Shown here: positions 2,339 through 31,268 of the stretch, one piece after another | Layout: each line of letters starts with the position of its first letter | Position numbering within the stretch: the first letter of the stretch is position 1 | From: a virus | DNA: 42,129 nucleotides | Strand: one strand, 5' to 3' | IMG/VR virus record: IMGVR_UViG_3300021373_003447 | Span: 1-42,129 of that record | Notes under the pieces: generated by a model | Told to the model about the DNA's origin: nothing | Database searches by the model: none | What the model saw: the letters and a program-made list of their open reading frames with translations, nothing else | Translations under genes and position numbers: made by a program

Positions 2339-2870
2339 ACAATTAGAATTATTTAGCAAAGCCGACGTGCCCTTTGTTAATGAAGTAGAAACTTTTAATC
2401 GCACGTTTAATAAACCGAATAATTATGAGCCAACAATACCAGAAAAGAAAGAGTGGCAATTCGTATACGACTTTGTACTTGAAGAATTGGAAGAATATAG
2501 ACAGGCTTGCGAAAACGGAGACATCGTGGAAGTTTTGGATGCTTTGTGTGATATTGCTTACGTTTCCCTTGGGAACGGTACTATGCTACACGGCCTTAAA
2601 GATAAGATATGGCCAGCATATCAAGAAGTACAAGGAAGCAATATGTCGAAGTCTTGCAGCACTCAAGAAGAAGCCATGGAGACTGTCACCCTCCGCTCTA
2701 AAGAACAAGATGAGCCATGTCACTTTGAACAGGTCGAAGATCGATTCGTAGTATATAGAACACGAGATCGTAAAGTAATGAAATCAATTAATTATTATAG
2801 ACCTGATCTACACCAATTCTTTACAGGAGATGAATTACAAAAATTTCATAACGCAAGTATAGGAATATAA
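2331..2870 (+). CDS. MazG-like nucleotide pyrophosphohydrolase
   Basis: This 179-residue protein belongs to the all-alpha NTP pyrophosphatase group (MazG / phosphoribosyl-ATP pyrophosphatase type), which hydrolyses NTPs to NMP and pyrophosphate. The metal-binding helices are visible: acidic residues E52 and E55 in LEELEEYRQ, then E67, D70 and D74 in the second helix. The later EVQGSNMSK block is typical of phage versions. An N-terminal QLELF resembles the bacterial sliding-clamp-binding pentapeptide. Codons between about 2360 and 2740 are visibly richer in G and C than those of neighbouring genes. The stop overlaps the polymerase start by one base. Confidence 0.8.
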   Translation: MGKQLELFSKADVPFVNEVETFNRTFNKPNNYEPTIPEKKEWQFVYDFVLEELEEYRQACENGDIVEVLDALCDIAYVSLGNGTMLHGLKDKIWPAYQEVQGSNMSKSCSTQEEAMETVTLRSKEQDEPCHFEQVEDRFVVYRTRDRKVMKSINYYRPDLHQFFTGDELQKFHNASIGI

Positions 2871-4609: not shown

Positions 4610-4872
4610 TGGCGTTAAAAAAACAATCAATTAGAAGTAAACATCATATAACAGTAGAAGGTAAAACTGTTTCTAAAGATGTTTTAATTACTAGAAGCGA
4701 AAATTGGAATGAAGTTCAAGAAAACCTATTTAGAAAAATGCTTAAACAAGGAGGCACATTTAAAGTTGCTGGTATTAAGTATAAAATAGAAATTGAAGAA
4801 AGAAATGACTTGGATTCAAATAGACAGGCACCCATCAATTTACCACCAATTCCAGGTGAAAGATCATTTTAA
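4609..4872 (+). CDS. hypothetical protein between the two polymerase genes
   Basis: This 87-residue product starts on the TAATG junction with the polymerase stop. It is basic at the N-terminus (MALKKQSIRSKHHITVEGK) and ends in a proline-rich tail. It shows no similarity to homing endonucleases that I can recognise (no GIY-YIG, LAGLIDADG or HNH pattern). Function unknown; its position suggests co-translation with the polymerase parts. Confidence 0.7.
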   Translation: MALKKQSIRSKHHITVEGKTVSKDVLITRSENWNEVQENLFRKMLKQGGTFKVAGIKYKIEIEERNDLDSNRQAPINLPPIPGERSF

Positions 4873-4873
4873 T

Positions 4874-5257
4874 ATGAAAGTAGAAATATCAAACGGAGAA
4901 TTACTAGATAAAATTACTATTCTAGAATTAAAATTAGATAAAATAAAGGATAAAGAAAAACTAGTTAATATTCAAAAAGAATTTGATGAACTTAATCCTT
5001 TATGTAATGAATTATTTAAAGTATATGGGGGTGAATTGCAAGTTCATTATTTAGCATTAGCTAAAATTAATGGTCAACTTTGGGATATAGAAGATTGGAT
5101 TAGAGATTGTGAACATGAAAAGAGATTTGACAAAGAATTTGTAGAACTGGCTCGTTCTGTGTATATTACTAACGACAAAAGATGTGAAGTTAAAAAGCTA
5201 ATTAATTTAATGACATCCTCAGGTTTAGTAGAAGAAAAATCATACAAAGAATATTAA
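4874..5257 (+). CDS. DUF6165-like protein
   Basis: The start is taken at 4874 (MKVEISNGELLDKITILELK) because this matches the beginning of the DUF6165 family and lies just after the preceding stop; an upstream in-frame ATG at 4793 would overlap the previous gene by 80 bases. Further family-like features are LWDIEDWIRDCE, FDKEFVELARSVYITNDKR and the C-terminal SGLVEEKSY. DUF6165 proteins have no known biochemical function and, as I recall, often occur near glycosyltransferase genes. Finding one inside a split polymerase is unusual. The stop overlaps the next start as TAATG. Confidence 0.75.
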   Translation: MKVEISNGELLDKITILELKLDKIKDKEKLVNIQKEFDELNPLCNELFKVYGGELQVHYLALAKINGQLWDIEDWIRDCEHEKRFDKEFVELARSVYITNDKRCEVKKLINLMTSSGLVEEKSYKEY

Positions 5258-6192
5258 TGAAACATTTAGAAGAAACACCCTGGTGGATATGTGATGCTGA
5301 TGATGAAAATTATTGTGCATATGTTGATACCGATTCTAATTATTTTAATGCTGAACCCATATTACTTTATTTATATCCTAATTTTGAGGAGTTTAGTAAT
5401 AAAGAAAAGGATGATATCTTAGAAAAAGTAGCACTTAAATATCAAGATGTTATCACTGACCATTATGATAATCTAGCTAAAGAATGTTTTAATGTATCAG
5501 AACACAGACTTGAAATGAAAACTGAGTGTGTAATTAGATCTGCTTATTTTAGAGCTACTAGACGTTATGCACAGTGGATTACTAAACAAGAGGGTATTGA
5601 AAAAGAAACTTTAGATATTAAAGGTTTAGAGTTTATGAAAGCAAATTTCCCACCTATTTTAGGGGAATTTTTTAATGATATACTTCAACAAGTACTTAAA
5701 GGTGAAGAAAAATCAAGTATAATTGACCAAATTAAAGTATTTAAAAGACAAATATTAGGTGGTGAAATCCCATTAGCTAAATTAGGTAATCCAACAGCAG
5801 TTAAAAAATTAGAAAAATACTCAGGTACGAGTGCTAGAGCAGGTGAAATGTTTACCGAAATACTCAAAGGTGCCCCTGCACCTGTAAGAGCAGCTATTAG
5901 ATATAATGATTTATTAAAATTATGGAAGTTAGATAGAAAACATAATTTAATTACAATGGCTGATAAGGTAAAATGGATTTATTGTAAAGATAATCCCTAT
6001 AAAATAGAAGCATTAGCATTTTTTGATTATGATATTCCTGAAAAAGTACAAGAATTTTTAGATAGATATGCTGATAGGCAAAAAGTATTTGATTCAATAC
6101 TATTAAATAAATTAGAAGGATTTTTTAGTGATTTACAATGGTCATTAGATTTAAACCCTTATACAAATGCATTAAGTTCGTTTGAAATTTAA
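5257..6192 (+). CDS. 43B: DNA polymerase family B, C-terminal part (motif C and thumb)
   Basis: The 311-residue product begins shortly before polymerase motif C, YVDTDS at 22-27, whose two aspartates bind the catalytic metals. DIKGLEFMKANFPP further on matches the palm region after motif C in family B enzymes, and the rest corresponds to the thumb. It has no exonuclease or motif A/B and can only act with the product of the gene at 2870. The protein ends LSSFEI; in T4 the gp43 C-terminus contacts the clamp, and the clamp gene follows directly here. Confidence 0.92.
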   Translation: MKHLEETPWWICDADDENYCAYVDTDSNYFNAEPILLYLYPNFEEFSNKEKDDILEKVALKYQDVITDHYDNLAKECFNVSEHRLEMKTECVIRSAYFRATRRYAQWITKQEGIEKETLDIKGLEFMKANFPPILGEFFNDILQQVLKGEEKSSIIDQIKVFKRQILGGEIPLAKLGNPTAVKKLEKYSGTSARAGEMFTEILKGAPAPVRAAIRYNDLLKLWKLDRKHNLITMADKVKWIYCKDNPYKIEALAFFDYDIPEKVQEFLDRYADRQKVFDSILLNKLEGFFSDLQWSLDLNPYTNALSSFEI

Positions 6193-7843: not shown

Positions 7844-8189
7844 TGCGGTTATAGTTAAACCGATTGAAATTGAAGAAACTACTTATGGGAATATTATTGT
7901 TCCTGATGTAGGAAAAGAAAAAAATGAAACAGGAGAAGTTATAGCTGTTGGACCAGGAAAACCAACAATTAGTGGAACATTTATTTCTACACAACTAAAA
8001 ATAGGAGATAAAGTAGTTCTACCAACAATGGGTTTTACTAAACTACCCTATGATGGGGAAGAGTATTATGTTGGTCCTGAAAACCAAATCCTTGCTAAAA
8101 TTACTGAAACCATTGATGTTTCAGAAATATTAGAAGAAACTAAAGAATCATTAACCGAAGAAGAAATTAAAGATTTATCGCATGAGTAA
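7821..8189 (+). CDS. groES: GroES-like co-chaperonin
   Basis: The 122-residue product has the Cpn10 fold pattern: LFDAVIVKPIEIEETTYGNIIVPD with the mobile loop around residues 18-30, then GEVIAVGPG, then a KIGDKVVLP strand and GEEYYVGPENQILAKI, the usual Cpn10 ending. About 25 acidic residues follow that bacterial GroES lacks. Cpn10 caps the chaperonin ring and drives folding inside the cavity. In T4 the phage co-chaperonin gp31 replaces host GroES to fold the capsid protein; here a matching GroEL is supplied as well. The stop overlaps the groEL start by 8 bases. Confidence 0.92.
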   Translation: MALEALFDAVIVKPIEIEETTYGNIIVPDVGKEKNETGEVIAVGPGKPTISGTFISTQLKIGDKVVLPTMGFTKLPYDGEEYYVGPENQILAKITETIDVSEILEETKESLTEEEIKDLSHE

Positions 8190-9804
8190 ACAAGTTATAT
8201 TAGGTTCTGAAGCAAGAACCAATCTAGTAAAAGGGATTGATACATTAGCAGATGCAGTAGTATCAACATTAGGACCCAATGGAAGAAATGTAGTAATAGC
8301 AAATGAAATGGGAGCTCCACAATCAACTAAAGATGGAGTTACCGTTGCAAAATCAATTACATTAAAAGACCCTAATCAAGAATTAGGAGTGCAGTTAGTA
8401 AAACAAGCTGCAATAAAAACAGCTGAAAAGGCAGGTGATGGGACAACAACATCTACTTTATTAGCTAGAGAAATGATTAAAGCAGGATTAACAGCTTTAA
8501 ATAATAATGAAAACGCAGTGCAAATTAAGAGAGATATTGATATTACAGTTAAAGAAGTAGTAAATAATCTTAGAAATAACATTGCAGAAGACATTTCAGG
8601 TGAAGAACAGTTAGAACAAATTGCAACAATTTCTGCTAATAATGATCCTGAAACTGGGAAGTTAATTGCTACCGCAATTGAAAAAGTTGGAATGGAAGGG
8701 GTTGTCCATATAGAAGAATCAAAAACAGGAGAAACTTATCTAGAAACTGTTGAAGGGTTACAGTTTGATAGGGGGTATAAATCACCTTATTTTGTTACAG
8801 ATAATAATTCTATGACTTCTGTATTAGATAATCCCCTCGTTCTTATTGCTGATCAAAAAATTACCCAAGTAAAAGAACTACTACCAGTATTAGAAGCAGT
8901 ATCTGCACAAGCTAAATCATTATTAATTATAGCTGAAGATATAGATAATGAAGCTTTAGCTACTCTTATTGTTAATAAAATGAGGGGTACAATGAAAGTA
9001 TGTGCTGTTAAAGCACCTGATTTTGGTGATAGAAGAAAATTAGTTTTAGATGATATTGCCACTACAACTGGAGGAATTGTTTTTGATAGGCAAAAAGGAA
9101 TGAAATTAGATAAATTCAGTTGGGATTGGTTTGGTGAAGCTAGAACAATAACAGTAGGAAAAGAACAAACAACAATAGTAGATGGAAAAGGAACAATTGA
9201 ATCAATTGAAACACGTATTGAAGAACTACAGCAACAAATCGATAAAGCAACAACACCGTTCGAAACGGAAAAACTCCAAGAAAGACTCGCGAAATTCACA
9301 GGAGGAGTAGCGATAATTCATGTAGGTGGAAATACTGAAACCGAAATGAAGGAGAAAAAAGATAGAGTTGATGATGCATTACACGCAACAAAAGCTGCTA
9401 TTGAAGAAGGAATAGTACCAGGAGGTGGAACAGCATTATTATATGCCTCATCAGGTTTAGAAGCTAAAACAACAGGTGCCCAAATTGTAGTAGAAGCTTG
9501 TGCTAAACCATTTAGCCAAATTCTAGTAAATGCTGGGTTTACTGAAGTAAAAGGACAAATATTAGCAGACAATTTAGTCAATTCAGGTAATGATACTTGG
9601 GCGGGATTTAATATTAAAACTGAAGAAATAGTAAATATGAAAGAAGCAGGTATTATTGATCCTACTAAAGTAGCCAGAACAGCATTACAAAATGCAGCAT
9701 CAGTTGCAGGTACAGTATTACTTACCGAATGCACAGTAGTAAATGAACCAAGTGAAGATAACAATCAACCTCAAATGGATCCATCCATGATGGGGATGAT
9801 GTAA
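8182..9804 (+). CDS. groEL: GroEL chaperonin
   Basis: This is a full-length 540-residue Cpn60. The ATP site is intact: GPNGRNV at 31-37, DGVTVAK at 51-57 and GDGTTT at 85-90 with D51 and D86. The apical domain is present, and AAIEEGIVPGGGTALLY marks the return to the intermediate and equatorial domains. The C-terminus ends in a methionine-rich MDPSMMGMM in place of the bacterial GGM repeats. With the phage GroES it should form a self-contained folding machine. Overlap with groES implies translational coupling. The reverse-strand reading frames across this gene are shadows. Confidence 0.97.
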   Translation: MSKQVILGSEARTNLVKGIDTLADAVVSTLGPNGRNVVIANEMGAPQSTKDGVTVAKSITLKDPNQELGVQLVKQAAIKTAEKAGDGTTTSTLLAREMIKAGLTALNNNENAVQIKRDIDITVKEVVNNLRNNIAEDISGEEQLEQIATISANNDPETGKLIATAIEKVGMEGVVHIEESKTGETYLETVEGLQFDRGYKSPYFVTDNNSMTSVLDNPLVLIADQKITQVKELLPVLEAVSAQAKSLLIIAEDIDNEALATLIVNKMRGTMKVCAVKAPDFGDRRKLVLDDIATTTGGIVFDRQKGMKLDKFSWDWFGEARTITVGKEQTTIVDGKGTIESIETRIEELQQQIDKATTPFETEKLQERLAKFTGGVAIIHVGGNTETEMKEKKDRVDDALHATKAAIEEGIVPGGGTALLYASSGLEAKTTGAQIVVEACAKPFSQILVNAGFTEVKGQILADNLVNSGNDTWAGFNIKTEEIVNMKEAGIIDPTKVARTALQNAASVAGTVLLTECTVVNEPSEDNNQPQMDPSMMGMM

Positions 9805-20272: not shown

Positions 20273-20896
20273 ATGAAAATAAGTTACGCAATCACAGTCT
20301 GTAATGAGTTTGTTGAAATCCAAAAATTAGTTTCTTTCCTTTTAAAGAATAAAAGAATTGAAGATGAAATAGTTATTTTATTTGATGTTACAAATGGGGA
20401 TGAAGCTATAGAAGAATATCTAAGAGCAAAATCAGTTAATAGTGAATTCAATTGGATTAAGGGTGATTTTAAAGGACATTTTGCTGATTGGAAAAACTAT
20501 CTTACTACTCTATGCTCAGGTGATTATATATTCCAGATAGATGCTGATGAATATCCTAACAAAGAGTTACTAGAGACACTTCCATTTTTACTTGAGATGA
20601 ATAAAGATGTCGATGTTATACTAGTACCTAGAGTAAATACAGTAGAAGGTTTAACTCAAGATCATATTGCTAAATGGGGATGGAGTGTTAATGAAAAAGA
20701 TTGGGTGAACTGGCCTGATTATCAGTGGAGAATATACAGGAACTCAGACAAAATAAAATGGGTAAATAAGGTACATGAACGTTTAGAGGGGTTTAATCAA
20801 TATGCTACACTTCCTATGGAAGAAGGTTTCGCTCTGTATCACCCTAAAGAAATTGAGAGACAAGAAAAACAAAACGCTTATTACGATACATTATGA
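20273..20896 (+). CDS. glycosyltransferase family 2-like
   Basis: The 207-residue product has the minimal GT-A core: ISYAITVCNEFVEIQKLVSF, then DYIFQIDADEYPNKELLE, where DAD is the metal/nucleotide-binding motif, and WVNKVHERLEGF near the end. The WADE-type family of LPS heptosyl/glucosyl transferases (WaaE-like) has this layout. The end overlaps the nucleotidyltransferase gene by four bases (ATGA). Confidence 0.8.
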   Translation: MKISYAITVCNEFVEIQKLVSFLLKNKRIEDEIVILFDVTNGDEAIEEYLRAKSVNSEFNWIKGDFKGHFADWKNYLTTLCSGDYIFQIDADEYPNKELLETLPFLLEMNKDVDVILVPRVNTVEGLTQDHIAKWGWSVNEKDWVNWPDYQWRIYRNSDKIKWVNKVHERLEGFNQYATLPMEEGFALYHPKEIERQEKQNAYYDTL

Positions 20897-21288
20897 AAAA
20901 AGTATGGGTTAATGGGTGTTTTGATATATTACACCGCGGGCATTATGAACTATTTAATTATGCTAAATCTTTAGGAGATAAACTTATTGTAGGCATTGAC
21001 TCAGATGAAAAAGTATCAAAAGATAAAGGTGCAGATAGACCCTATAATAAGTTAAAAGACAGAGTTTATGCCTTAGAAAGCTTAAAAGCTGTAGATGAAG
21101 TAATGGTATTTGATAATAGGGACCATCTTGAATGGTTAGTACAAATAACCAAACCAGATATTTTAGTAGTAGGGAGTGATTGGAAAGGAAAAGAAATAGT
21201 AGGTGGGCAATATTCAAAAGAAATTGTATATTTCAGTAGAATAGGAAATTATTCTACAACAAACATTTTATCAAATGAGAGAAAGTAA
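20893..21288 (+). CDS. HldE-C-like nucleotidyltransferase
   Basis: The 131-residue protein is a small cytidylyltransferase-fold enzyme. KVWVNGCFDILHRGHYEL carries the HxGH nucleotide-binding site (H14, H17) and NYSTTNIL near the end matches the STT motif. VVGSDWKGKEIVGGQ is typical of the adenylyltransferase domain of HldE (ADP-heptose synthesis) more than of glycerol-3-phosphate cytidylyltransferase. A separate HldE-kinase-like gene is at 29683. Whether the sugar is heptose is inference. Confidence 0.8.
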   Translation: MKKVWVNGCFDILHRGHYELFNYAKSLGDKLIVGIDSDEKVSKDKGADRPYNKLKDRVYALESLKAVDEVMVFDNRDHLEWLVQITKPDILVVGSDWKGKEIVGGQYSKEIVYFSRIGNYSTTNILSNERK

Positions 21289-21625
21289 ATTATACCCGGA
21301 TAGGCAAAAAAAAGCTTATGTAGATATAGATGAAACTATATGTTTTTATAAGGATAAAAGAATATATGAATTAGCTGAACCTAACATGACTAATATTAAT
21401 AAAATTAATAAGTTAAAAAAAGAAGGATGGCATATTACTTATTATACAGCAAGAGGGGGAGCAAGTAAAATTGATTATACAGAACTAACAACAAACCAAC
21501 TAAATGAATGGGGATGTCTTTTTGATAATTTAATTGTTGGTTATAAAGATAACCCTCAAACACCAACTAAACCTTCTTATGATTTAATTATAGATGATAA
21601 GGCAAAACGAATAGAAGAATTATGA
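21275..21625 (+). CDS. HAD-like phosphatase
   Basis: The 116-residue product shows the small HAD plan: motif I VDIDETICF (DxD) near residue 17, YYTARGG as motif II, and LIIDDKAKR as motif IV. It lacks a large cap. Similar short HAD proteins sit in capsule gene clusters. A sugar-phosphate phosphatase acting between the heptose kinase and nucleotidyltransferase (GmhB role) is an attractive but unproven reading. It overlaps its neighbours on both sides. Confidence 0.72.
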   Translation: MRESKLYPDRQKKAYVDIDETICFYKDKRIYELAEPNMTNINKINKLKKEGWHITYYTARGGASKIDYTELTTNQLNEWGCLFDNLIVGYKDNPQTPTKPSYDLIIDDKAKRIEEL

Positions 21626-21984
21626 TAGTAAAACCAAAAATTGTCCAAAAAGGATGGGGAGAAGAAGTATGGATCCACAACGATGAAGAATATTGTGGGA
21701 AATTACTTAGATTTTTTAAAGCAGGAAACAAATTTTCATTACATTACCATATAATTAAAAAAGAATCTTGGTATGTAGGTAAAGGGAGTTTTGAATACAT
21801 TTGGCTAGATACTGAAAAAGGTATAGAACATACAACTACTATACCTACTGGGACTTGTCTTACAATAGAAAGAGGATCACCCCACCAACTCATTGCTTTA
21901 GAAGATATGTCAGAAATTTTTGAAGTATCAACAGAACACTTTGATGAAGATAGTTATAGAATTAGAACCGGAGATAAATTATGA
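21622..21984 (+). CDS. cupin, mannose-6-phosphate-isomerase-like
   Basis: The 120-residue protein is a single cupin domain. GWGEEVWI matches the entry of phosphomannose isomerase type II C-terminal domains; FSLHYHIIKKESWYVGKGSFEY is cupin motif 1 and TCLTIERGSPHQLIAL motif 2. Metal ligands are probably the H-x-H pair, the following E and the H of SPHQ. A role in mannose supply for GDP-sugars would fit the cluster. A regulatory sugar-binding role cannot be excluded. Confidence 0.72.
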   Translation: MIVKPKIVQKGWGEEVWIHNDEEYCGKLLRFFKAGNKFSLHYHIIKKESWYVGKGSFEYIWLDTEKGIEHTTTIPTGTCLTIERGSPHQLIALEDMSEIFEVSTEHFDEDSYRIRTGDKL

Positions 21985-22379
21985 AAAGAAAATACTTACC
22001 AACATTATCAGAATTAGTAGATAGATTATCTATTGTACAACTAAAAGAAGTCTTTATTACAGAACATAAAGAAGAATATGCTAAAGAAATAGCAGAAATA
22101 ACCCATGATATAGGAGAAATTCTTAAAGAAGGTGATATTAAGTTAACTGGTGAAGATGTCAGAGCAATAGTAGTATTGTCTCAAATGAATCTTCATATTT
22201 GGCATAATGAAACCAAATATAGAGCAGGAACGGGGGATGGTAATTTAGGATTAACACATGGGTTAAACGGAATAAGAAATACTGCAAAAAATAAAATCCA
22301 AGAAAATGAAGGTGGAAGAAAAGACTATAAAGTAGATTGTATCGCGGCTGAATTTAAAGATTGGGAAATTAGTTGGTAA
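21981..22379 (+). CDS. conserved phage protein with SELVDRL motif
   Basis: This 132-residue protein begins LPTLSELVDRLSIVQLKEVF and has HDIGEILKEGDIKLTGEDVRAI and later NLHIWHNETKYRAG. Similar proteins are widespread in T4-like phages, without known function. The N-terminal pattern (E-L-[VL]-D-[RK]-x-[ST]-I-x2-L-K) is shared with the DUF6165-like protein at 4874, suggesting common ancestry of that helix pair. It overlaps the cupin gene by four bases. Confidence 0.7.
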   Translation: MKRKYLPTLSELVDRLSIVQLKEVFITEHKEEYAKEIAEITHDIGEILKEGDIKLTGEDVRAIVVLSQMNLHIWHNETKYRAGTGDGNLGLTHGLNGIRNTAKNKIQENEGGRKDYKVDCIAAEFKDWEISW

Positions 22380-22380
22380 A

Positions 22381-23262
22381 ATGAAAATACACCAAAAATT
22401 TAGAATAGAAGGATATTTTGATAACTTTATTAAAAAATATAAAGATTATCCAATTACTATATACACCGATCACCCAGTCCAACCCCAAGATATAGATTAC
22501 AATAGAATTAATCTTTTTATGATTCATGAACCTAATGAAATATTTAATATACATAATTGGGTAATCCAAAACCATCATTTATTTCAGGGGGTAATAAGTT
22601 GGAGTAAAGATTTAGTAAAATCTATTCCTAATGGGATTGAATTTCCTTGTAGTTGGAGAATGAATGGTAATTCTGTTTGGGAGTTTTTAGGACCTAAAAA
22701 ATTTGAAGTAACTTTTTTATGTGGTACAAAGAAAATTACTGAAGGTCATAAATTAAGACATAAAGTTCTTGAGTTAAAAGATAATATAAGCGTACCTCAT
22801 AGGTTTTATGAAACCCTAGAAGATTGGGATACCTCAACAAATACTAGACCAGGTTATAGTGAATATTCTAAAGATTTATCCCATATTCCAAATGCTGCTA
22901 AATTTGAACCTAACATATATGGGAAAAAAGATTTATATATAAATTCTATGTTTAATATAGGAATAGAAAACGTAAAACATGATAATTGGATTAATGATAA
23001 ATTATATTCATGTTTTTCATCCTTAGTAGTTCCTATATATTGGGGTTGTGAAAATCTTGAAGAACTTGGATATGATGAAAGAGGGGTTATTAGATTTAAT
23101 AGTAAAGAAGAGTTAAAGTATATTTTAGATAATTTAACAGAACAAGACTACCATGATAGGTTAGAGTATCTTAAACATAATTATGAAGTTAATAAAAAGG
23201 ATACATTAGAAGATAATCTTTCTTATATTTTAGACGAATTAATTAAATTAAATAATATATGA
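22381..23262 (+). CDS. GT10-like (fucosyltransferase-type) glycosyltransferase
   Basis: The 293-residue product has in its C-terminal half FNIGIENVKHDNWINDKLY followed by VVPIYWGCENLEELG. This is the GT10 donor-site arrangement in which FxxxxENxxxxxxxxEKL and VPVYxG bind GDP-fucose; here EKL is DKL. The N-terminal half is divergent. A GDP-linked 6-deoxy or 3,6-dideoxy sugar as donor would fit the GDP-sugar genes between 24.9 and 29.7 kb. Confidence 0.72.
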   Translation: MKIHQKFRIEGYFDNFIKKYKDYPITIYTDHPVQPQDIDYNRINLFMIHEPNEIFNIHNWVIQNHHLFQGVISWSKDLVKSIPNGIEFPCSWRMNGNSVWEFLGPKKFEVTFLCGTKKITEGHKLRHKVLELKDNISVPHRFYETLEDWDTSTNTRPGYSEYSKDLSHIPNAAKFEPNIYGKKDLYINSMFNIGIENVKHDNWINDKLYSCFSSLVVPIYWGCENLEELGYDERGVIRFNSKEELKYILDNLTEQDYHDRLEYLKHNYEVNKKDTLEDNLSYILDELIKLNNI

Positions 23263-23735
23263 TATTCCCAGAAGTAAAAATTTATCAACCTGATTCATTT
23301 GAAGATTTTAGAGGTGAATTATATACTTTATTCAAACAAGAAGAAAGTAATTTAATATTTAACCATGATAAAGTTTCTATATCTACTAAAAATGTTTTAA
23401 GGGGATTACATGGTGATTCAAAATCTTGGAAACATATTTCTTGTTTAGCAGGAAAAGTATTACTAGTAGTAGTTGATAATAGAAAAGAATCAGAACATTA
23501 TTTAAAGTGGGATTCTATAGTTTTATCTTCAAAAAATAGAAAGTCTGTTTTAATTCCTCCTATGTTTGCAAATGGACATTTAATTTTAAGTGATGAAGCT
23601 ACATTTTTTTATAAATGGTCATATAAAGGAAAATATCCTGATGTAAAAGATCAATTTACTTTAAAATGGAATGATCCAAAATTAAACATTCATTGGCCTA
23701 TTTCAACTCCTATTTTATCTAAACGTGACTATTAA
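23259..23735 (+). CDS. RmlC-like sugar 3,5-epimerase (cupin)
   Basis: The 158-residue protein follows the RmlC pattern from end to end: DFRGELYTLF, VSISTKNVLRGLHGDS with catalytic H51, GKVLLVVVDNRKES with D73, VLIPPMFANGHLILSD, YKWSYKGKY with Y118 as probable acid, and KWNDPKLNIHWP. RmlC epimerises C3 and C5 of dTDP-4-keto-6-deoxyglucose; no RmlA/B/D gene is in the window, so a different 4-keto sugar may be the substrate. It ends 24 bases before the next gene. Confidence 0.85.
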   Translation: MIFPEVKIYQPDSFEDFRGELYTLFKQEESNLIFNHDKVSISTKNVLRGLHGDSKSWKHISCLAGKVLLVVVDNRKESEHYLKWDSIVLSSKNRKSVLIPPMFANGHLILSDEATFFYKWSYKGKYPDVKDQFTLKWNDPKLNIHWPISTPILSKRDY

Positions 23736-23759: not shown

Positions 23760-24386
23760 ATGAATATACCAAAAAAATACACTAAAGTTCGGGATATAAA
23801 CATTGCACCCGAAGAGCTTATTAATTTTGAGACTAAAGTTAAAGAAGCTTATGAAAACGCTCAAATTCAAGGTCCTGTTCATTTATCTAAAAATAATGAA
23901 TCAGATTTAATTAATCTATTCCAGTACATCCACCCTGAAGATTGGGTTTTTTCAGCCTGGAGAAATCATTATCATGCTTTACTCCATGGGGTAGATGAAG
24001 ATAAATTATTTAATTGGATTAAAGAAGGCAGAAGTATGGGAACTAATAATACAAACCCAAACTTTTATGCTTCGTCTATAGTAGGAGGAATTATACCCAT
24101 TGCTTTAGGTGTAGCTGCTGGATTGAAACGGTCAAACTCCCAACGTAGGGTTTGGTGTTTTATAGGTGATATGACAATGGAAACAGGAGTATTTTGGGAA
24201 GCTTATAAATATTCTCAAAATATGAATCTTCCTTTACAGTTTGTTGTAGAGGATAATAATCTAAGTGTACATACACCAACAGATATAGCTTGGGGAAAAA
24301 GAATGAATCCCCCAGAAAATGTAATTTATTATCAATACGAAATGTCGTATCCACATCATGGAACAGGCAAATGGGTAAACTTTTAA
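23760..24386 (+). CDS. TPP-dependent enzyme, E1-alpha-like subunit
   Basis: The 208-residue product corresponds to the diphosphate-binding (PP) domain of TPP enzymes. The cofactor motif runs from G136-D137 to N166-N167 (GDMTMETG ... EDNN), about 30 residues, and it is preceded by SIVGGIIPIALGVAAGL, the usual E1-alpha/transketolase helix. GDM replaces the common GDG. It is much shorter than dehydrogenase E1-alpha (about 330). The partner PYR domain is in the next gene. A TATATT box lies six bases before the ATG. Confidence 0.82.
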   Translation: MNIPKKYTKVRDINIAPEELINFETKVKEAYENAQIQGPVHLSKNNESDLINLFQYIHPEDWVFSAWRNHYHALLHGVDEDKLFNWIKEGRSMGTNNTNPNFYASSIVGGIIPIALGVAAGLKRSNSQRRVWCFIGDMTMETGVFWEAYKYSQNMNLPLQFVVEDNNLSVHTPTDIAWGKRMNPPENVIYYQYEMSYPHHGTGKWVNF

Positions 24387-24390
24387 AAAT

Positions 24391-24921
24391 ATGAAATATA
24401 AAGAACAATTAGTAAAATCAATGGAATGGTTGGCAGAAAAACCAGATACCTTATTTACAGGACAAGCTATGGGAATGTCAGGCCATGCAATATCAGGAAC
24501 AGTAGCAAAGGTTTCTCAAGATAAAAGAGTAGAACTTCCTGTATTTGAAGAAACACAATTAGGAATGGCAACAGGTATGGCATTAGAAGGGTGGGTACCA
24601 ATTACAGCTTATCCTAGATTTGATTTTTTTATCCTGTCACTAAACCAATTAGTTAATCATTTAGATAAGATTCAAGATATGTCTAAAGGGGATATGAAAC
24701 CAAAAGTTATTATTAGAGTAGCAGTAGGATCAAAAGTACCTTTTAGTGCTGGTCCTCAACATACTCAAAATCATACTGAAGCTTTACGTAAAATGCTTAC
24801 TGAAATTGAAGTAGTAGAATTAATAGAACCTGAAGATATATTTCCAGCTTTTGAAAAGGCATATAATGGTGATAAATCTACATTAATAGTTGAACACAGC
24901 GAATTTTATAATAGTAAATAA
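24391..24921 (+). CDS. TPP-dependent enzyme, E1-beta-like PYR subunit
   Basis: This 176-residue protein resembles the pyrimidine-binding domain of pyruvate dehydrogenase E1-beta: LPVFEETQLGMATGMALEG with the TPP-activating glutamate (E53 or E54), WVPITAYPRFDFF, LNQLVNHLDKIQDMSKG, and AGPQHTQNHTEA. The C-terminal transketolase-type domain of E1-beta is absent. With the product of 23760 it should rebuild one TPP site. No lipoyl E2 gene is present, so non-oxidative carbon-carbon chemistry on a keto sugar is more likely than an oxidative complex. The substrate is unknown. Confidence 0.82.
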   Translation: MKYKEQLVKSMEWLAEKPDTLFTGQAMGMSGHAISGTVAKVSQDKRVELPVFEETQLGMATGMALEGWVPITAYPRFDFFILSLNQLVNHLDKIQDMSKGDMKPKVIIRVAVGSKVPFSAGPQHTQNHTEALRKMLTEIEVVELIEPEDIFPAFEKAYNGDKSTLIVEHSEFYNSK

Positions 24922-24922
24922 T

Positions 24923-26083
24923 ATGTTTAAATGGCCACTTATAAATGATAATATCACTCAAAGTGATAGAAAAATATTATCCGATTTTTGCTTAAATGGG
25001 GAACGTTTTACTAATGGACCTAAAGTAAAAGAATTTGAAAATCTATGGTCTGAATGGCTAGGAGTAAAACATACTGTAATGGTAAATTCCGGGGCGTCAT
25101 CAAACTATATTTCTATTGCCATGGTAAAAGAATTAGTTGGTAAAGGTGAAGTTATAGTTCCTCCTATAGGATGGGTGTCAGATATTTCATCAGTATCTCA
25201 ATTGGGTATGACACCTGTATTTGTAGATGTATCTTTAAATGATTTTAATATAACAGCTGAAAATATTAAAAAAGCTATTACTAAAGATACTAAAGCTATA
25301 GTATTAGTACATACATTAGGTTTTCCTGCTATAAATGATGAAATTATTAAAATAGCTAGGGATAATAATATTATGTTAATTGAAGACTGTTGTGAAGCAC
25401 ATGGTGCAACCTACAAAAATAAACGTGTAGGTTCATTTGGTGATATTTCTTTATTTTCTTTTTATTTTGGACATCATATCACTACAATTGAAGGTGGTGT
25501 AGTATGTGTTAAAGATGATAAATTATATGATTTAGCTAAATTATTTCGTTCACACGGAATGACTAGAGAGGCATCTAAAGAATTACAACAAGAATATCAA
25601 CTTAAATATCCAAATTTAAATCCTTTATTTACTTTTGCTGTAGCAGGATTTAACATGAGATCAAGTGAAATAAATGCTGTTTTAGGAATTGAACAAATGA
25701 AACGTTTAGATTCTAATATAGAACATAGACGTATAAATTTAGATGTTTGGTTAGATAATTTAGATAATTCTAAGTTTATAACTTCTTTTAATAGGCAAGG
25801 TAATAGTAATTTTGCTTTACCTTTAATGATGCAAGAATCAAATAAAAATAAATTAAAAGATGTTTGTTTTATTTTAGAACAAGAAGGTGTTGAATATAGA
25901 TTAGGTACCGCTGGAGGCGGGAATCAAGCACTTCAACCCTATCTAGAAAAAGTACCTTATAAAATAGATGGAATATTAACATATGCTAATTATATTCATA
26001 ATAATTCCTTATATGTAGGTAACCATACAGATTTAACAAATAACCAAATTATTAACCTTTGTAAAAAATTAAATAATGTTTAA
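24923..26083 (+). CDS. PLP-dependent 4-keto-6-deoxyhexose 3-dehydratase (ColD-like)
   Basis: This DegT-fold protein (386 residues; ColD 388) carries NSGASS at 55-60 and IEDCCEAHGA with D155 for PLP binding. The residue that is Lys in aminotransferases is H184, in SFYFGHHITTIEGG. The Lys-to-His change is the known mark of the 3-dehydratases ColD (GDP-4-keto-6-deoxymannose) and E1 (CDP-sugar), which hold PLP non-covalently and remove the C3 hydroxyl. A GDP-mannose dehydratase-type gene at 28673 points to the ColD version. The start at 24923 follows the previous stop by one base and gives the expected N-terminus; an in-frame ATG 33 bases upstream would overlap it. Confidence 0.87.
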   Translation: MFKWPLINDNITQSDRKILSDFCLNGERFTNGPKVKEFENLWSEWLGVKHTVMVNSGASSNYISIAMVKELVGKGEVIVPPIGWVSDISSVSQLGMTPVFVDVSLNDFNITAENIKKAITKDTKAIVLVHTLGFPAINDEIIKIARDNNIMLIEDCCEAHGATYKNKRVGSFGDISLFSFYFGHHITTIEGGVVCVKDDKLYDLAKLFRSHGMTREASKELQQEYQLKYPNLNPLFTFAVAGFNMRSSEINAVLGIEQMKRLDSNIEHRRINLDVWLDNLDNSKFITSFNRQGNSNFALPLMMQESNKNKLKDVCFILEQEGVEYRLGTAGGGNQALQPYLEKVPYKIDGILTYANYIHNNSLYVGNHTDLTNNQIINLCKKLNNV

Positions 26084-27047
26084 AGATCAAAAAGTATTAG
26101 TAACAGGTGGTGGGGGAATGATTGGACGTTCCTTAGTTAAGTTTCTTTTAGAAAAAGGAGCTCAAATAACCATAGCAGATTTAACAGAACCCTCAGATTT
26201 ACCTGAAAATGTTAGTTATACAAAAGTAGATTTAAGATATTTTTCCCAATGTGAAGAAATTTGTAATGGTATGGATTATATTTTTAATTTAGTAGGTGTT
26301 AAAGGATCCCCTAAAATGTGCGCAGAACAACCAGCTGATTTTATGGTTCCTATGTTACAATTTAATACTAATATGATGGAAGCTGCTCGTAGAGCTAATG
26401 TTAAATGGTATCTATATACAAGTTCAGTTGGAGTATATGCCCCTGCTGCTGTATTTGTAGAAGATAGTGTTTGGGAAACAGTACCTTCACCTAATGACCG
26501 TTTTGCTGGATGGGCTAAAAGAATGGGTGAATTACAAGCTGAAGCATATTCAATTCAATATAACTGGGATAAAGTATCAATTGTAAGACCAGCAAATGTA
26601 TATGGTAATTATGATAACTTTAACCCTGCAAATGCAATGGTTGTACCTTCACTTATTAGAAAAGCCCAAGAAAATAGTATTCTTGAAGTTTGGGGTGATG
26701 GAACAGCAGTTAGAGATTTTATACATGCTGATGATGTAGCATTAGGAATGATCTTTGCCGTTGAAAACCAAATTACTAAACCAATCAATCTAGGATCAGG
26801 TGAAGGATATTCTATTAAACAAGTAGTTGAAATGGTGGTTAAACATGCTAATAAACCACTTAAAATAAAGTGGTTAACTGACAAACCTTCAGGTGATGCT
26901 TTAAGATTATTTGATATGACTAGAGCTAAATCTTATGGGTATGATATCTCAGTTGGTTTAGATGAAGGTATTAAAAGAACTACTGAATGGTTTACTAATA
27001 ATAAAGAAATTTTAGATAAACGTTATAATGCATTTGTAGACCACTAA
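26076..27047 (+). CDS. SDR-type nucleotide-sugar epimerase/dehydratase
   Basis: This 323-residue extended SDR has GGGGMIG at 11-17, IFNLVGVKGSP in the nucleotide-binding region, YTSSVGVYAP with the active-site serines, RPANVYGNYDNF, and GDGTAVRDFIHADDVA near 230. The usual Tyr of YxxxK is not found: the region reads FAGWAK with K148, and the residue four before it is Ala. The protein may use another acid, or act as a reductase/epimerase with altered chemistry. It overlaps the ColD-like gene by 8 bases. Confidence 0.82.
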   Translation: MFKDQKVLVTGGGGMIGRSLVKFLLEKGAQITIADLTEPSDLPENVSYTKVDLRYFSQCEEICNGMDYIFNLVGVKGSPKMCAEQPADFMVPMLQFNTNMMEAARRANVKWYLYTSSVGVYAPAAVFVEDSVWETVPSPNDRFAGWAKRMGELQAEAYSIQYNWDKVSIVRPANVYGNYDNFNPANAMVVPSLIRKAQENSILEVWGDGTAVRDFIHADDVALGMIFAVENQITKPINLGSGEGYSIKQVVEMVVKHANKPLKIKWLTDKPSGDALRLFDMTRAKSYGYDISVGLDEGIKRTTEWFTNNKEILDKRYNAFVDH

Positions 27048-27736
27048 TGGTTAAATATCTTATTTCAGGAAATAAAAGTGGATTAGGTAAATACTTATTT
27101 GATAATTTACCTAATTCTATTGGATTTGGAAGGGGCCAACAACATATAATCCAAAATTGTGATAATATAATACATTGTGCTTTTAACAAAACAAATGATA
27201 TTACAAACCATTATCAATATTTAGAAGATAATATATTTTTAACTAAGAATTTATTAAATTGTTATAATAAAAAGTTTATTTATATTTCTACTATCGATGT
27301 TTACAATCAAACCCCAACTATGTATTCTTTATTTAAACAATTTGCTGAATCCATAGTATTAAACCATCCTAATACTCTTGTATTAAGGTGTTCTATGATG
27401 TTAGGTCCTACAATGAAACCTAACCATGTTACTAAATTAAAAAATAATAATGAAAAAATTGGGTTAAGTGGTGAGTCTACTTTTAATTACATTTTAATGG
27501 AAGACATTTATAATTTTATAATTAATGAAGATTTATCCCAATATAATGGAATTATAGATTTTACTTCAAATTCAAATACTAAATTATCAGAAGTTAAAAA
27601 ATATTTTAACTCAAATACTAAATTAGGAGATTATAAGTATGAATCTTTAAATTTGGAGAATACAAATCCAATTCATATATTAAACTCCAAATATAATAAA
27701 TCATCAATAGACAATTTAAAAACTTATTTTACATGA
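27047..27736 (+). CDS. short SDR-type sugar dehydrogenase/reductase
   Basis: The 229-residue protein is a reduced SDR. The N-terminal glycine motif is unusual (ISGNKSGLGKYL); IIHCAFNKTND, FIYISTIDVYNQ and Y-SLF-K follow, so the catalytic Ser/Thr-Tyr-Lys set is there. LRCSMMLGP is the post-catalytic strand. The C-terminal substrate domain is short. It resembles RmlD-type reductases in length after truncation. A 4-ketoreductase role is possible. Confidence 0.72.
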   Translation: MVKYLISGNKSGLGKYLFDNLPNSIGFGRGQQHIIQNCDNIIHCAFNKTNDITNHYQYLEDNIFLTKNLLNCYNKKFIYISTIDVYNQTPTMYSLFKQFAESIVLNHPNTLVLRCSMMLGPTMKPNHVTKLKNNNEKIGLSGESTFNYILMEDIYNFIINEDLSQYNGIIDFTSNSNTKLSEVKKYFNSNTKLGDYKYESLNLENTNPIHILNSKYNKSSIDNLKTYFT

Positions 27737-28680
27737 AAACAATATTAATTTGTGGCGCTACTGGTTTTATAGGTAGAAACCTTTTAGAATATTATTACAA
27801 ACAAGGAAAATATAAAATTATAGCAACCCACTATAATAGACCAGCAATTGATGGGTATGATGGAGTAAAATGGGTTAATATTGACCTAAGAGACCCTATT
27901 GCCGTTAAATCAATACTTAATGGGGTTGATATAGTATTACAATTTGCCGCTACAACATCAGGCTCTAAAGATATAATAACAAGACCTTATATCCATGTTA
28001 CAGATAACGCTGTAATGAATAGTTTATTGCTTAGAGAATGTTATGAACAAAATATAGAACATTTTGTTTTTCCTAGTTGTACTGTTATGTATCAACCTTC
28101 TGATAAGGCTTTATCTGAAAATGACTGGAATGGGAATGATGAAATATTTCCAACTTATTTTGGTGTAGGTAATACTAAGGTTTATATTGAAAAAATGTGT
28201 GAATTTTTCTCAAGGTTAGGAAAAACTAAACATACTGTTATGAGACATTCAAATATGTATGGTCCTTATGATAAATATGATTTAGAACGATCCCATATGT
28301 TTGGAGCTACTATAACAAAAGTTATGACTTCACAAAATGGAAAAGTAAATGTTTGGGGTACAGGTGAAGAATCTAGAGATTTATTATATGTTGATGATTT
28401 AGTAGAATTTGTAGACGCTGCTATCAACAACCAAAAATCAGATTATGAATTATTTAATGTAGGATTAGGTAAAGCCACCCAAGTTAAAGATGTAGTATCT
28501 AAAATCATAACCCATTCAGGAAAAGATTTAGAAATGGTACATGATTTATCAAAACCAACTATACCTACTTCTTTATTTTTAAATTGTAAAAAAGCAAAAG
28601 ATTTATTAGATTGGGAACCTAGAACAACCCTAGATGAAGGTATTAAGAAAACAATTAAATGGTATAAAGAAAATGAGTAA
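27733..28680 (+). CDS. GDP-fucose-synthase-like SDR (possible ColC role)
   Basis: The 315-residue product has GATGFIG at 8-14, FPSCTVMYQPSD around 113-124 (compare SSCIYP of GDP-L-fucose synthase, with active-site Ser and Cys), RHSNMYGPYDKYD and GTGEESRDLLYVDDL. The lysine of the catalytic pair is probably K149 in YFGVGNTK, but the Tyr is seven rather than four residues before it. GDP-fucose synthase and ColC are 3,5-epimerase/4-reductases of this family; ColC finishes GDP-L-colitose after ColD. Position two genes behind the ColD-like gene fits that role. Confidence 0.78.
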   Translation: MKTILICGATGFIGRNLLEYYYKQGKYKIIATHYNRPAIDGYDGVKWVNIDLRDPIAVKSILNGVDIVLQFAATTSGSKDIITRPYIHVTDNAVMNSLLLRECYEQNIEHFVFPSCTVMYQPSDKALSENDWNGNDEIFPTYFGVGNTKVYIEKMCEFFSRLGKTKHTVMRHSNMYGPYDKYDLERSHMFGATITKVMTSQNGKVNVWGTGEESRDLLYVDDLVEFVDAAINNQKSDYELFNVGLGKATQVKDVVSKIITHSGKDLEMVHDLSKPTIPTSLFLNCKKAKDLLDWEPRTTLDEGIKKTIKWYKENE

Positions 28681-29686
28681 AACAGCATTTATTACAGGCA
28701 TAACGGGGATGGTAGGTTCACATTTAGCTGATTATTTATTAAAAAATACAGATTGGAAGGTATTTGGGTTAGCTAGATGGAATGATTCTTTAGAAAATAT
28801 AGAACATTTATCCGAAAATATTAATAATAAAGAACGTATTGAATTATTATATGGAGATTTAAATGATTTACCATCACTAATTACTGCTATAGAAAAATCA
28901 ACCCCAAATTATATTTTTCATTTAGCAGCCCAATCGTACCCACAAACCAGTTTTGACGCGCCTATAGAAACGTTACAAACTAATATACTAGGTACTGCAA
29001 ATCTATTGGAAGCATTACGTAAATCACCGTATAAAAATGCTATAACGCATGTATGTGCATCAAGTGAGGTATTTGGAAGAGTATCTTCAGATAAACTACC
29101 TATAAATGAAGAATGTTCTTTCCACCCTGCTTCACCTTATGCTATATCTAAAGTTGGTACTGATTTAGTTGGTAGGTATTATGCTGAAGCTTATGGGATG
29201 CAGATTATGACTACTAGAATGTTTACCCACACAGGCCCAAGAAGAGGTGATGTATTTTCTGAGTCTACATTTGCTAAACAAATAGCAATGATTGAAGCCG
29301 GTTTACAAGAGCCTAAAATTTATGTTGGTAATTTAGAATCATTAAGAACATATGCTGATGTTAGAGATGCAGTAAAAGCATATTATATGTTAGTAACAAA
29401 TAACCCAATTGGAGGAGAATATTATAATATTGGGGGAAGTTATACATGCAAAATTTCAGATATGTTACATTATCTAATAAACCAATCTACAATTAATGAT
29501 ATTGAAATAGTAACAGACCCAGAACGTTTACGACCAATTGATGCTGATTTACAAGTACCTGATACTACTAAATTTGAAAATCATACTGGATGGAAACCAG
29601 AGTATACTTTCGAACAAACTATGGATGATCTTTTAGATTATTGGAGAAACAAAGTTAAATCAGGTAGAAAATTTTTAAGACGATGA
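28673..29686 (+). CDS. GDP-mannose 4,6-dehydratase family SDR
   Basis: The start at 28673 gives MSKTAFITGITGMVGSHLAD, overlapping the previous gene by 8 bases. The 337-residue protein has G9-x2-G12-x2-G15, HLAAQSYPQTSFDAP (typical of GMD/RMD), ASSEVFG with S131-E132, Y156-AIS-K160, THTGPRRGDVF and VGNLESLRTYADVRDAVKAY. GMD makes GDP-4-keto-6-deoxymannose, the ColD substrate; RMD, a close relative, reduces it to GDP-rhamnose. The SSE and PRRG features favour dehydratase, the QIAMIEAG stretch recalls RMD, so the exact reaction is not certain. Confidence 0.85.
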   Translation: MSKTAFITGITGMVGSHLADYLLKNTDWKVFGLARWNDSLENIEHLSENINNKERIELLYGDLNDLPSLITAIEKSTPNYIFHLAAQSYPQTSFDAPIETLQTNILGTANLLEALRKSPYKNAITHVCASSEVFGRVSSDKLPINEECSFHPASPYAISKVGTDLVGRYYAEAYGMQIMTTRMFTHTGPRRGDVFSESTFAKQIAMIEAGLQEPKIYVGNLESLRTYADVRDAVKAYYMLVTNNPIGGEYYNIGGSYTCKISDMLHYLINQSTINDIEIVTDPERLRPIDADLQVPDTTKFENHTGWKPEYTFEQTMDDLLDYWRNKVKSGRKFLRR

Positions 29687-30417
29687 ATATATTAGTTATA
29701 GGAGATAGTTGTAGTGATATTTTTAGATATGGAAAAGTAACTCGCATAGCCCCAGAAGCACCAGTACCAATTATAATACCAGAAAAAGAAACAGTAAACT
29801 CAGGTATGGCTGGAAATGTTGTTGCTAATTTAAAAGCATTAGGGGCAAATGTTGATTTAATTACTAATAAAGAAGAAATACGTAAAATACGTTATGTGTG
29901 TTCTAAATACAATCACTTATTATTAAGAGTTGATGAAAATGACACTTGTGCCCCAATTAAAGATATAGAAATAGAAAGGGGTAAATATGATGCGATAATT
30001 ATTTCTGATTATTGTAAAGGGTTTTTAAATGAAGATATGATTGAAGCAATTTCAAATACTGATGAATGTCCTGTATTTTTAGATACTAAAAAAGTTTTAG
30101 GTGATTGGTGTAAAAATATAGATTATATTAAAATAAATTACCAAGAATATTTAAACAATAAAGAAATTTTAAATATGCTTCCTGATTTAAAAAATAAAAC
30201 CATTGTTACTAGAGGAAAATATGGGTGTGACTTTAGAGACAAAAATTATCCAACTATAGATGTTCCTGTAAAAGATGTTTCAGGAGCAGGTGATACTTTC
30301 CTATCAGGTTTAGTTGTGGAATATATTAATAGTGGTTTTAACATTAATTCAGCAATTAAATTTGCTCAAGAGTGCACTACAAAAGTAATCCAAAAATCAG
30401 GAGTATCAACAATATGA
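29683..30417 (+). CDS. HldE-N-like heptose-phosphate kinase (PfkB family)
   Basis: The product starts like HldE/RfaE kinases (IGDSCSDIFRYGKVTRIAPEA, then GMAGNVVANLKALGA), and the PfkB anion-hole motif is intact at DVSGAGDTFLSG with catalytic D204. At 244 residues it is about 70 shorter than the HldE kinase domain; the missing part lies in the middle. It would phosphorylate C1 of a sugar 7-phosphate. The matching nucleotidyltransferase is 8.8 kb upstream at 20893, whereas in most bacteria the two form one protein. Confidence 0.82.
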   Translation: MNILVIGDSCSDIFRYGKVTRIAPEAPVPIIIPEKETVNSGMAGNVVANLKALGANVDLITNKEEIRKIRYVCSKYNHLLLRVDENDTCAPIKDIEIERGKYDAIIISDYCKGFLNEDMIEAISNTDECPVFLDTKKVLGDWCKNIDYIKINYQEYLNNKEILNMLPDLKNKTIVTRGKYGCDFRDKNYPTIDVPVKDVSGAGDTFLSGLVVEYINSGFNINSAIKFAQECTTKVIQKSGVSTI

Positions 30418-31268
30418 AAACAGCAGCTTTATTATACGTAAGAAATGATGATTATAAAGAAAATGAAAGAGTTATAGTTACCCTTTCATCTATGTTAGAT
30501 ACCTTTGATGAGGTAATTTTATTAGATTGGAACACCCCAAAAGGTAAAAACCCACTATTATGGGAAATAGAAGATAAATTACCAAAAACTGGTAGGTTAA
30601 AACATATGGTAATCCCTCCTAATGCCGCAACTCAACTTACAAACTATGATCCTAAAGCTCAAGCTTGTACTCAAGTATTATCTTCTAATATCATGCTACG
30701 TAGAACAGATGCTGATTGGATTGTAGCTACTACTATTGATATTATAGCTCCTAAGAAAGAAACATTAAATACTTTTTTATCAAAGGCGGATAAAAATACT
30801 TTTTATACTTTATCAAGAAGAGATTTTGAAATAAGTGAATTAGAAGAATTTGGTTTTGATAGATGGAAAGAATATAGAGACATTTTAGACAATAAATCAA
30901 AACCTAGATATTATCCTGCTAAAGTTAGTCCAAATGATGATTATAGTATAATTAACTGTTGTGGTGATTTTCAAATGGCACATAAAGATGTTTGGAATAA
31001 AATAAAAGGATATGAAGAAAAAATGATGTATGCTTGTTTCCAAGATACAAACATACAGAAAAAAGCAGTTTTAAATGGGTGTGGTTTAATGGCAATATAT
31101 GATATTCCCTTTTATCATATGTCCCATAAAGGAATGGGAAATGATGGTAGTTCCCCATCAAAACAACATTACAATGATGTTTGGAAGTGGGTAGAACATT
31201 TCCAAACTTCAGAAAACTTAGAAGACTGGGGGTTTAGTAATATTGAAATTGAATATGAAACTTATTAA
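30414..31268 (+). CDS. glycosyltransferase-like protein, GT-A fold
   Basis: The start is placed at 30414 (MKTAALLYVRNDDYKENERV), an ATGA overlap with the kinase stop. The 284-residue product has the order of GT2-like enzymes: a first strand, EVILLDWNTPKGK, then DADWIVATTIDIIAPK and INCCGDFQMAHKDVWNKIKGYEE, the second half resembling the GT-A acceptor helix. The classic DxD is replaced by a TTID-type site, so metal dependence is uncertain. It closes the glycan island. Confidence 0.7.
   Translation: MKTAALLYVRNDDYKENERVIVTLSSMLDTFDEVILLDWNTPKGKNPLLWEIEDKLPKTGRLKHMVIPPNAATQLTNYDPKAQACTQVLSSNIMLRRTDADWIVATTIDIIAPKKETLNTFLSKADKNTFYTLSRRDFEISELEEFGFDRWKEYRDILDNKSKPRYYPAKVSPNDDYSIINCCGDFQMAHKDVWNKIKGYEEKMMYACFQDTNIQKKAVLNGCGLMAIYDIPFYHMSHKGMGNDGSSPSKQHYNDVWKWVEHFQTSENLEDWGFSNIEIEYETY

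Follow-up and report, generated by a model that had tools for sequence, protein, structure and literature searches.

A predicted phage pathway to a nucleotide-linked 3,6-dideoxy-heptose that probably carries a branch at C4

The IMG/VR virus record IMGVR_UViG_3300021373_003447 (positions 1 to 42,129; this entire stretch of 42,129 nucleotides is referred to here as the window) carries, at about 13.9-31.3 kb, a long run of mostly sugar genes, all of them on one strand. Within this run, a gene for a DegT-fold protein using pyridoxal or pyridoxamine phosphate (PLP/PMP) is preceded by the genes of a two-subunit thiamine diphosphate (ThDP) enzyme and followed by several genes for short-chain dehydrogenases/reductases (SDRs). 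The genes, the families to which they belong, their synteny, their diagnostic residues and their phylogeny lead us to the view that this cassette probably serves a nucleotide-sugar pathway for a 3,6-dideoxy-heptose, one that is probably branched at C4. A previous sequence-only reading had instead proposed that the phage makes GDP-L-colitose from GDP-mannose; the open reading frames (ORFs) that it named are all present. The genes on which our argument relies are the following.

20893..21288, + strand: rfaE domain II-like nucleotidyltransferase (heptose-1-phosphate to nucleoside diphosphate (NDP)-heptose); 115 bits with NCBIfam TIGR02199, whose curated cut-off of 181.5 bits is not reached; CTP_transf_like
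21275..21625, + strand: small HAD-type phosphatase-like protein with a DIDET motif, candidate for the GmhB role
23259..23735, + strand: RmlC-like cupin of the GDP-4-keto-heptose 3,5-/5-epimerase type; nearest PDB entries are heptose epimerases
23760..24386, + strand: PP-domain subunit of a ThDP enzyme, E1-alpha-like, 208 amino acids; E1_dh, E=5.8e-13
24391..24921, + strand: PYR-domain subunit of a ThDP enzyme, E1-beta-like, 176 amino acids; Transket_pyr, E=2.9e-9
24923..26083, + strand: predicted PLP/PMP-dependent NDP-4-keto-6-deoxy-sugar C3-dehydratase of the His type (H184), from the ColD match and the tree
26076..27047, + strand: SDR1, Fcl-like extended SDR without the Tyr of YxxxK; Fcl 1bsv, 108 bits
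27047..27736, + strand: SDRx, short SDR of 229 amino acids with intact YxxxK, candidate keto-reductase; phrog_540, E=6.5e-10
27733..28680, + strand: SDR2, extended SDR with a conserved YFGVGNTK instead of YxxxK, from its match and a motif survey
28673..29686, + strand: predicted NDP-heptose 4,6-dehydratase; 7us5, 378 bits; YAISK intact
29683..30417, + strand: rfaE domain I-like heptose-phosphate kinase (PfkB); TIGR02198, 122 bits, below the cut-off of 345; PfkB, 58.7 bits

The DegT protein (386 amino acids, starting with the ATG at 24923) carries His at the position of the PLP-binding lysine, and it is as long as ColD, just as the sequence-only reading had stated; in the alignment, H184 of the window protein (FSFYFGHHITTIEGG) pairs with H188 of ColD (FSSFYSHHIATMEGG). 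This residue is invariant across 26 aligned sequences, and His is likewise found in each of the 61 viral DegT ORFs readable at the PLP region (58 with FGHH, three with PAHH), a sample in which many of the source loci overlap. ColD is the top PDB match by sequence (201 bits), and the AlphaFold model (pLDDT 94) has ColD 2gms as its nearest Foldseek neighbor (TM 0.90). In an IQ-TREE analysis of 37 DegT proteins, Lys-type and His-type proteins are split with a support of 100/100, and the window protein falls on the His side, so that the grouping with Lys-type aminotransferases that would have spoken against the previous proposal is not observed. The presence of H184 at the PLP-lysine position, together with the ColD-like predicted fold, lends good support to a C3-dehydratase, and we are highly confident that the 24923 protein catalyzes the C3-dehydration of a nucleotide-linked sugar. 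A perosamine-type aminotransferase is ruled out by the His residue and by the tree.

Within the His-type proteins, the window DegT is part of a virus clade (100/99) that is sister to a bacterial clade of ThDP-associated His-type proteins. ColD itself joins two SAR11 proteins at 100/100, and the window protein is excluded from this group. The RfbH clade is separate as well (100/99), and the Cys-rich iron-sulfur insert (CYC...C) typical of RfbH-like proteins is absent from the window DegT sequence; a CDP-type RfbH enzyme is consequently ruled out. Viral DegT proteins of this RfbH type do occur elsewhere, near a 4,6-dehydratase-like gene, in L053 (2703-4043), L054 (2694-4043) and L042 (2-898); these three loci also hold an acetolactate-synthase-like ThDP gene, which raises the possibility of a YerE-like enzyme.

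The seven-carbon nature of the substrate is suggested by the enzymes that surround the DegT protein. The 28673 protein belongs to the GDP_Man_Dehyd family, and to this extent its description as an SDR of the GDP-mannose 4,6-dehydratase (GMD) type was correct. However, it scores 378 bits with the GDP-D-glycero-D-manno-heptose 4,6-dehydratase of Campylobacter jejuni (7us5) versus 153 bits with the E. coli GMD (1db3), and its TIGR01472 score (187.7) is below the cut-off of 415. Its closest characterized relative is thus the GDP-heptose enzyme and not GMD, and its YxxxK motif is intact. The same trend is seen for the 23259 epimerase, which is closer to the GDP-keto-heptose epimerases of C. jejuni (7ang, 7an4, 8dco, 8db5 and 7m14; 153-156 bits) than to RmlC (1dzr; 82 bits). 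The nearest relatives of the 29683 kinase and the 20893 nucleotidyltransferase are the two rfaE domains. The 21275 protein matches a capsule biosynthesis protein (9iqw; 33 bits) and EcbF-BcbF (18.6 bits); its phage family bears the name phosphoheptose isomerase, yet the protein has no SIS domain and carries the HAD-like DIDET motif, and this family name is probably wrong. Since dehydratase, epimerase, kinase, nucleotidyltransferase and HAD-type phosphatase independently point in the same direction, we consider a heptose to be the likely substrate of the cassette.

In their kinds, these enzymes match the GDP-3,6-dideoxy-heptose pathway of C. jejuni rather than that of colitose. In serotypes HS:5 and HS:11, a 4,6-dehydratase, a PLP-dependent C3-dehydratase, an RmlC-like C5-epimerase and a C4-reductase yield GDP-3,6-dideoxy-heptoses in vitro; GDP is the nucleotide used by these enzymes, and the C3-dehydratases are reported to be 62-67% identical to ColD-type enzymes (PMC10440746). 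The window shares with this system a 4,6-dehydratase of the same type, a C3-dehydratase of the ColD kind, an RmlC-like epimerase and an Fcl-like SDR, all in one cluster. It differs in being phage-borne, in its rfaE-type kinase and nucleotidyltransferase, in the inserted ThDP pair, in the missing YxxxK Tyr of its Fcl-like SDR, and in a DegT protein that lies outside the ColD clade.

Synthesis of GDP-L-colitose from GDP-mannose, with 28673 as GMD, 24923 as ColD and 27733 as ColC, draws its appeal from the fact that ColD is the best match of the DegT protein by sequence and structure, and from the membership of 28673 in the GDP_Man_Dehyd family; His-type DegT, fold and length are indeed shared with the colitose pathway of E. 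coli O55 (ColD/ColC). Yet the window contains neither a mannose-type GMD nor an intact Fcl-type candidate for ColC. It adds a heptose-type epimerase, for which the colitose route has no requirement, ThDP genes that have no place in it, and genes of a heptose-kinase-like, a nucleotidyltransferase and a phosphatase-like protein. SDR1 and SDR2 both lack YxxxK, an absence conserved in their viral and bacterial homologues in our motif survey, whereas the motif is kept in SDRx and in an epimerase-like protein encoded at 19415. SDR2, the presumed ColC, is an extended SDR that is not especially Fcl-like (96 bits with 4zrm, its best PDB match, versus about 63 bits with Fcl of E. coli), and neither 27733 nor 26076 contains the YxxxK pair of a ColC/Fcl enzyme; a ColC role for 27733 is unlikely for this reason. 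Given the heptose-type dehydratase and epimerase, the SDR motif and the position of DegT outside the ColD clade, we reject colitose, a six-carbon sugar of O-antigens, as the product and regard this route as hardly plausible. What remains of the previous proposal is a nucleotide-linked 3,6-dideoxy sugar made via a His-type C3-dehydratase; colitose and a GDP-mannose substrate do not.

A better candidate for a phage-encoded colitose pathway is found in sequenced cyanophages. His-type DegT proteins are present in S-CAM7 and ACG-2014f, where, as in the window, a 4,6-dehydratase is encoded next to them along with an Fcl-like SDR; these clusters contain a true GMD and neither an RmlC-like nor a ThDP gene beside it. 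The dehydratase of S-CAM7 reaches 494 bits with GMD versus 123 bits with the heptose enzyme. In Synechococcus phage S-CAM7 (L068, 7094-10152), true GMD, Fcl-like SDR and His-type DegT are encoded in a row, and this trio fits colitose better than the window cassette does. Colitose production by a phage, which had been flagged as noteworthy, would therefore not be unique to the window. A limited literature search found no report of phage colitose. Published descriptions exist for GMD and GDP-fucose synthase of cyanophage S-SCSM1 (PMC9602691) and for rfaE of pelagimyophages (PMC7029224). A relative of the heptose-type dehydratase (55% identity) is present in phage Bellamy. No report of a phage pathway for 3,6-dideoxy-heptoses or branched sugars was found in a limited literature search, and a search directed at heptose pathways in phages yielded no relevant result.

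The ThDP genes (23760-24921), to which the sequence-only reading made no reference, lie directly upstream of the DegT gene and encode, according to Pfam, the PP and PYR halves of an enzyme of the pyruvate dehydrogenase E1 kind. The PP subunit has human pyruvate dehydrogenase E1-alpha as its best Foldseek match (AlphaFold pLDDT 91), and its Mg/ThDP motif (GDM...DN) is kept across diverse sequences; in the PYR subunit, the catalytic Glu (E53) and H124 are invariant. With both domains, the cofactor motif and the catalytic Glu in place, the pair has the attributes of an E1-type two-subunit ThDP enzyme. ThDP pair and DegT occur in the same gene order in most viral loci. DegT is near the pair in 31 of 36 distinct viral loci, and 27 of these 36 contain both DegT and the heptose dehydratase.

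This association extends to cellular genomes. When bacterial and archaeal genomes were scanned for the ThDP pair, 80 loci were obtained. Wherever a DegT ORF lies no more than 1.5 kb from the pair and could be read, it is of the His type (39 of 39; 40 of 40 in a different, earlier alignment). In four sampled cellular genomes, ten other DegT proteins are of the Lys type, and the four His-type proteins coincide by their coordinates with the ThDP-adjacent genes. A gene for an HddA-like GHMP heptose kinase precedes those for E1a, E1b and DegT in four cellular genomes, and this arrangement was seen in the loci examined from Verrucomicrobia, Nitrospira, Bacteroidota and Planctomycetes. This module of HddA-like kinase, E1a, E1b and His-type DegT was observed in L085, L098, L110, L146 and other cellular loci of several phyla, and we know of no previous description of it. 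It is often followed by a gene for a B12-dependent radical SAM protein that is mostly 53-62% identical to the viral copy in L017.

Branching of keto-deoxy sugars has been reported or proposed for certain classes of ThDP enzymes, namely E1-like alpha/beta pairs, YerE and split transketolases (PMC12247030; PMC4753412). Our suggestion of a branched 3,6-dideoxy-heptose is based on the two-carbon branches that E1-type pairs are reported to add to such sugars, and a role of the viral ThDP pair in adding a branch at C4 stands, in our assessment, about evenly balanced. Like AviB1/AviB2, Pau11/Pau12 and KbDH-alpha/beta (alpha-KADH2), the viral pair is a two-subunit E1-like enzyme encoded beside deoxy-keto-sugar enzymes. 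It is likened to the alpha-KADH2 branchers by this genomic association, and it differs from them in being minimal (PP, 208 amino acids; PYR, 176 amino acids) and in lacking a C-terminal domain. YerE, for comparison, acts on a 3,6-dideoxy-4-keto sugar.

The product could alternatively lack the branch and be a 3,6-dideoxy-heptose like those of C. jejuni HS:5/HS:11. The ThDP pair would then act not on the C4 ketone but upstream, as a carboligase or in the manner of a transketolase, to supply a ketose-phosphate precursor of the heptose. All four enzyme kinds of C. jejuni are present in the window (PMC10440746), the cellular ThDP genes come immediately after that of an HddA-like kinase, the split transketolase found at the corresponding place in L017/L018 could produce sedoheptulose-7-phosphate, and fused ThDP genes are located next to heptose-type kinases in S-SM2 and P-TIM68, with no DegT nearby. 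Set against this are the proximity of the pair to a His-type DegT in all 39 readable cellular cases, the nearest folds of the first subunit, which are those of pyruvate dehydrogenase E1 and not of transketolase, and SAR11 loci that encode a transketolase-like pair alongside the mini ThDP pair, which would be redundant. We consider an unbranched product unlikely, though far from negligible.

Another alternative assigns the ThDP pair and DegT to a branched, yersiniose-like 3,6-dideoxy-hexose and the heptose enzymes to a separate sugar made by the same cluster. YerE does use a 3,6-dideoxy-4-keto-hexose (PMC12247030), a single cluster can yield several distinct sugars, and the viruses represented by L042, L053 and L054 have a gene for an RfbH-type DegT as well as an acetolactate-synthase-like ThDP gene. 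However, the sole close 4,6-dehydratase of the cassette is of the heptose type, and it accompanies DegT and ThDP genes in the 27 viral loci mentioned above. This arrangement strikes us as very improbable.

Several observations weigh against the branched 3,6-dideoxy-heptose that we favor. A GmhA/SIS_2 domain was found neither in the window nor in ten related viral records. Kinase, nucleotidyltransferase and epimerase score under the equivalog cut-offs of NCBIfam. The PYR subunit has no counterpart of the C-terminal transketolase domain of classical E1-beta. Furthermore, the ThDP pair also occurs without a nearby DegT, in SAR11 loci (e.g., L069, L070 and L073) and in the fused genes of S-SM2 and P-TIM68; it consequently has no obligatory link to 3-deoxy sugars and could make the sugar precursor instead. 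Finally, the reduction step is uncertain because SDR1 and SDR2 lack YxxxK. SDRx is the best candidate for a reductase, and a C4 branch would render reduction at C4 unnecessary.

Viral loci differ in the ThDP module that accompanies the sugar backbone genes. A longer E1-alpha/E1-beta-like pair replaces the mini pair in some of them (L004-L007, L009, L011, L013, L015), usually together with DJ-1, a cupin and a 129-amino-acid protein, and a split transketolase is found in its place in L017/L018. The parallel between these modules and the known or proposed branching ThDP classes is a striking association. In SAR11 loci the mini pair co-occurs with a transketolase-like pair, which weakens a strict equivalence, and the three modules should hence not be treated as simple substitutes. 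A wider proposal, that minimal two-subunit ThDP carboligases spread by viruses build C4-branched 3,6-dideoxy-heptoses, with swapped modules that alter the branch on an otherwise unchanged set of backbone enzymes, is tentative, and we see the balance as tilted somewhat against it. If it were true, aquatic phages would diversify a surface sugar through the exchange of one ThDP module. To our knowledge, C4-branched 3,6-dideoxy-heptoses (nonose-type sugars) have not been described.

The data lend themselves to the following scheme, in which we infer substrate, nucleotide, branch, product, order of steps and destination or acceptor. Host GmhA would isomerize host sedoheptulose-7-phosphate, and the PfkB kinase, HAD phosphatase and nucleotidyltransferase of the phage would convert the resulting sugar to NDP-D-glycero-D-manno-heptose; ADP is the usual nucleotide in the products of rfaE enzymes. 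The 28673 SDR would then form the 6-deoxy-4-keto-heptose, from which the His-type DegT, with PMP, would remove the C3 hydroxyl to yield a 3,6-dideoxy-4-keto-heptose. The RmlC-like epimerase would invert C5. Most likely, the ThDP pair would subsequently place a two-carbon acyl unit, derived from pyruvate or a ketose, onto the C4 ketone in the manner of AviB1/B2-type pairs and YerE; an SDR would reduce the product, and glycosyltransferases of the cluster would attach the sugar to the host surface or the virion.

Dozens of viral contigs hold almost the same cassette, which suggests that these viruses remodel the host surface or cover themselves with an unusual sugar. If our proposal is correct, phages would carry, beyond single glycosyltransferases or epimerases, an almost complete set of enzymes for a rare seven-carbon deoxy-sugar whose synthesis has so far been resolved enzymatically in Campylobacter, with a carbon-branching step otherwise encountered chiefly in antibiotics and a few O-antigens. 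The recurrence of the cassette in viruses and the presence of a kindred ThDP-DegT module across many bacterial phyla (SAR11, Prochlorococcus and Nitrospira among them) would then point to a widespread, unstudied surface sugar in phage-host contact. The enzymes, which are small and apparently soluble, can be assayed with known GDP-heptose substrates, and they would count as candidates for a class of ThDP enzymes, so far sparsely sampled, that forms tertiary alcohols.

Four further genes complete the cassette.

21622..21984, + strand: WbuC-like cupin, weak match; TIGR04366, 28.8 bits; Cupin_2, E=1e-4; MannoseP_isomer, E=0.011
21981..22379, + strand: conserved 132-amino-acid protein of most cassettes; 54-80% identity in most viral loci
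22381..23262, + strand: GT10-like glycosyltransferase; Pfam PF00852, 22.9 bits versus a cut-off of 23.9
30372..31268, + strand: conserved in related loci, where it adjoins the kinase gene; without a family hit at the thresholds applied

The cupin had been regarded as a protein of the phosphomannose-isomerase type, for which a match exists but is very weak; the GT10-like transferase is recovered just under the Pfam cut-off. Family searches gave no match for the 21981..22379 protein. The 30372..31268 protein, which has neither a PHROG nor an NCBIfam match, is thought to be a glycosyltransferase by its context only.

The cassette is flanked on the left by T4-like replication genes (split PolB, clamp loader and exonuclease) and on the right by a baseplate-hub/tail-lysozyme-like gene and an HNH endonuclease gene; its carrier is a T4-like phage. 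These flanks and the recurrence of the cassette in viral contigs rule out host contamination. The PolB-type DNA polymerase (2870-6192) is encoded by two ORFs, between which lie two small ORFs without a PHROG match. The phage also encodes a GroEL (8182-9804), which shares 60% identity with its counterpart in Flavobacterium phage immuto. QueE-like, GTP cyclohydrolase and phosphoribosyl-transferase-like genes at 32-2338 suggest that the DNA of this phage may carry a 7-deazaguanine modification.

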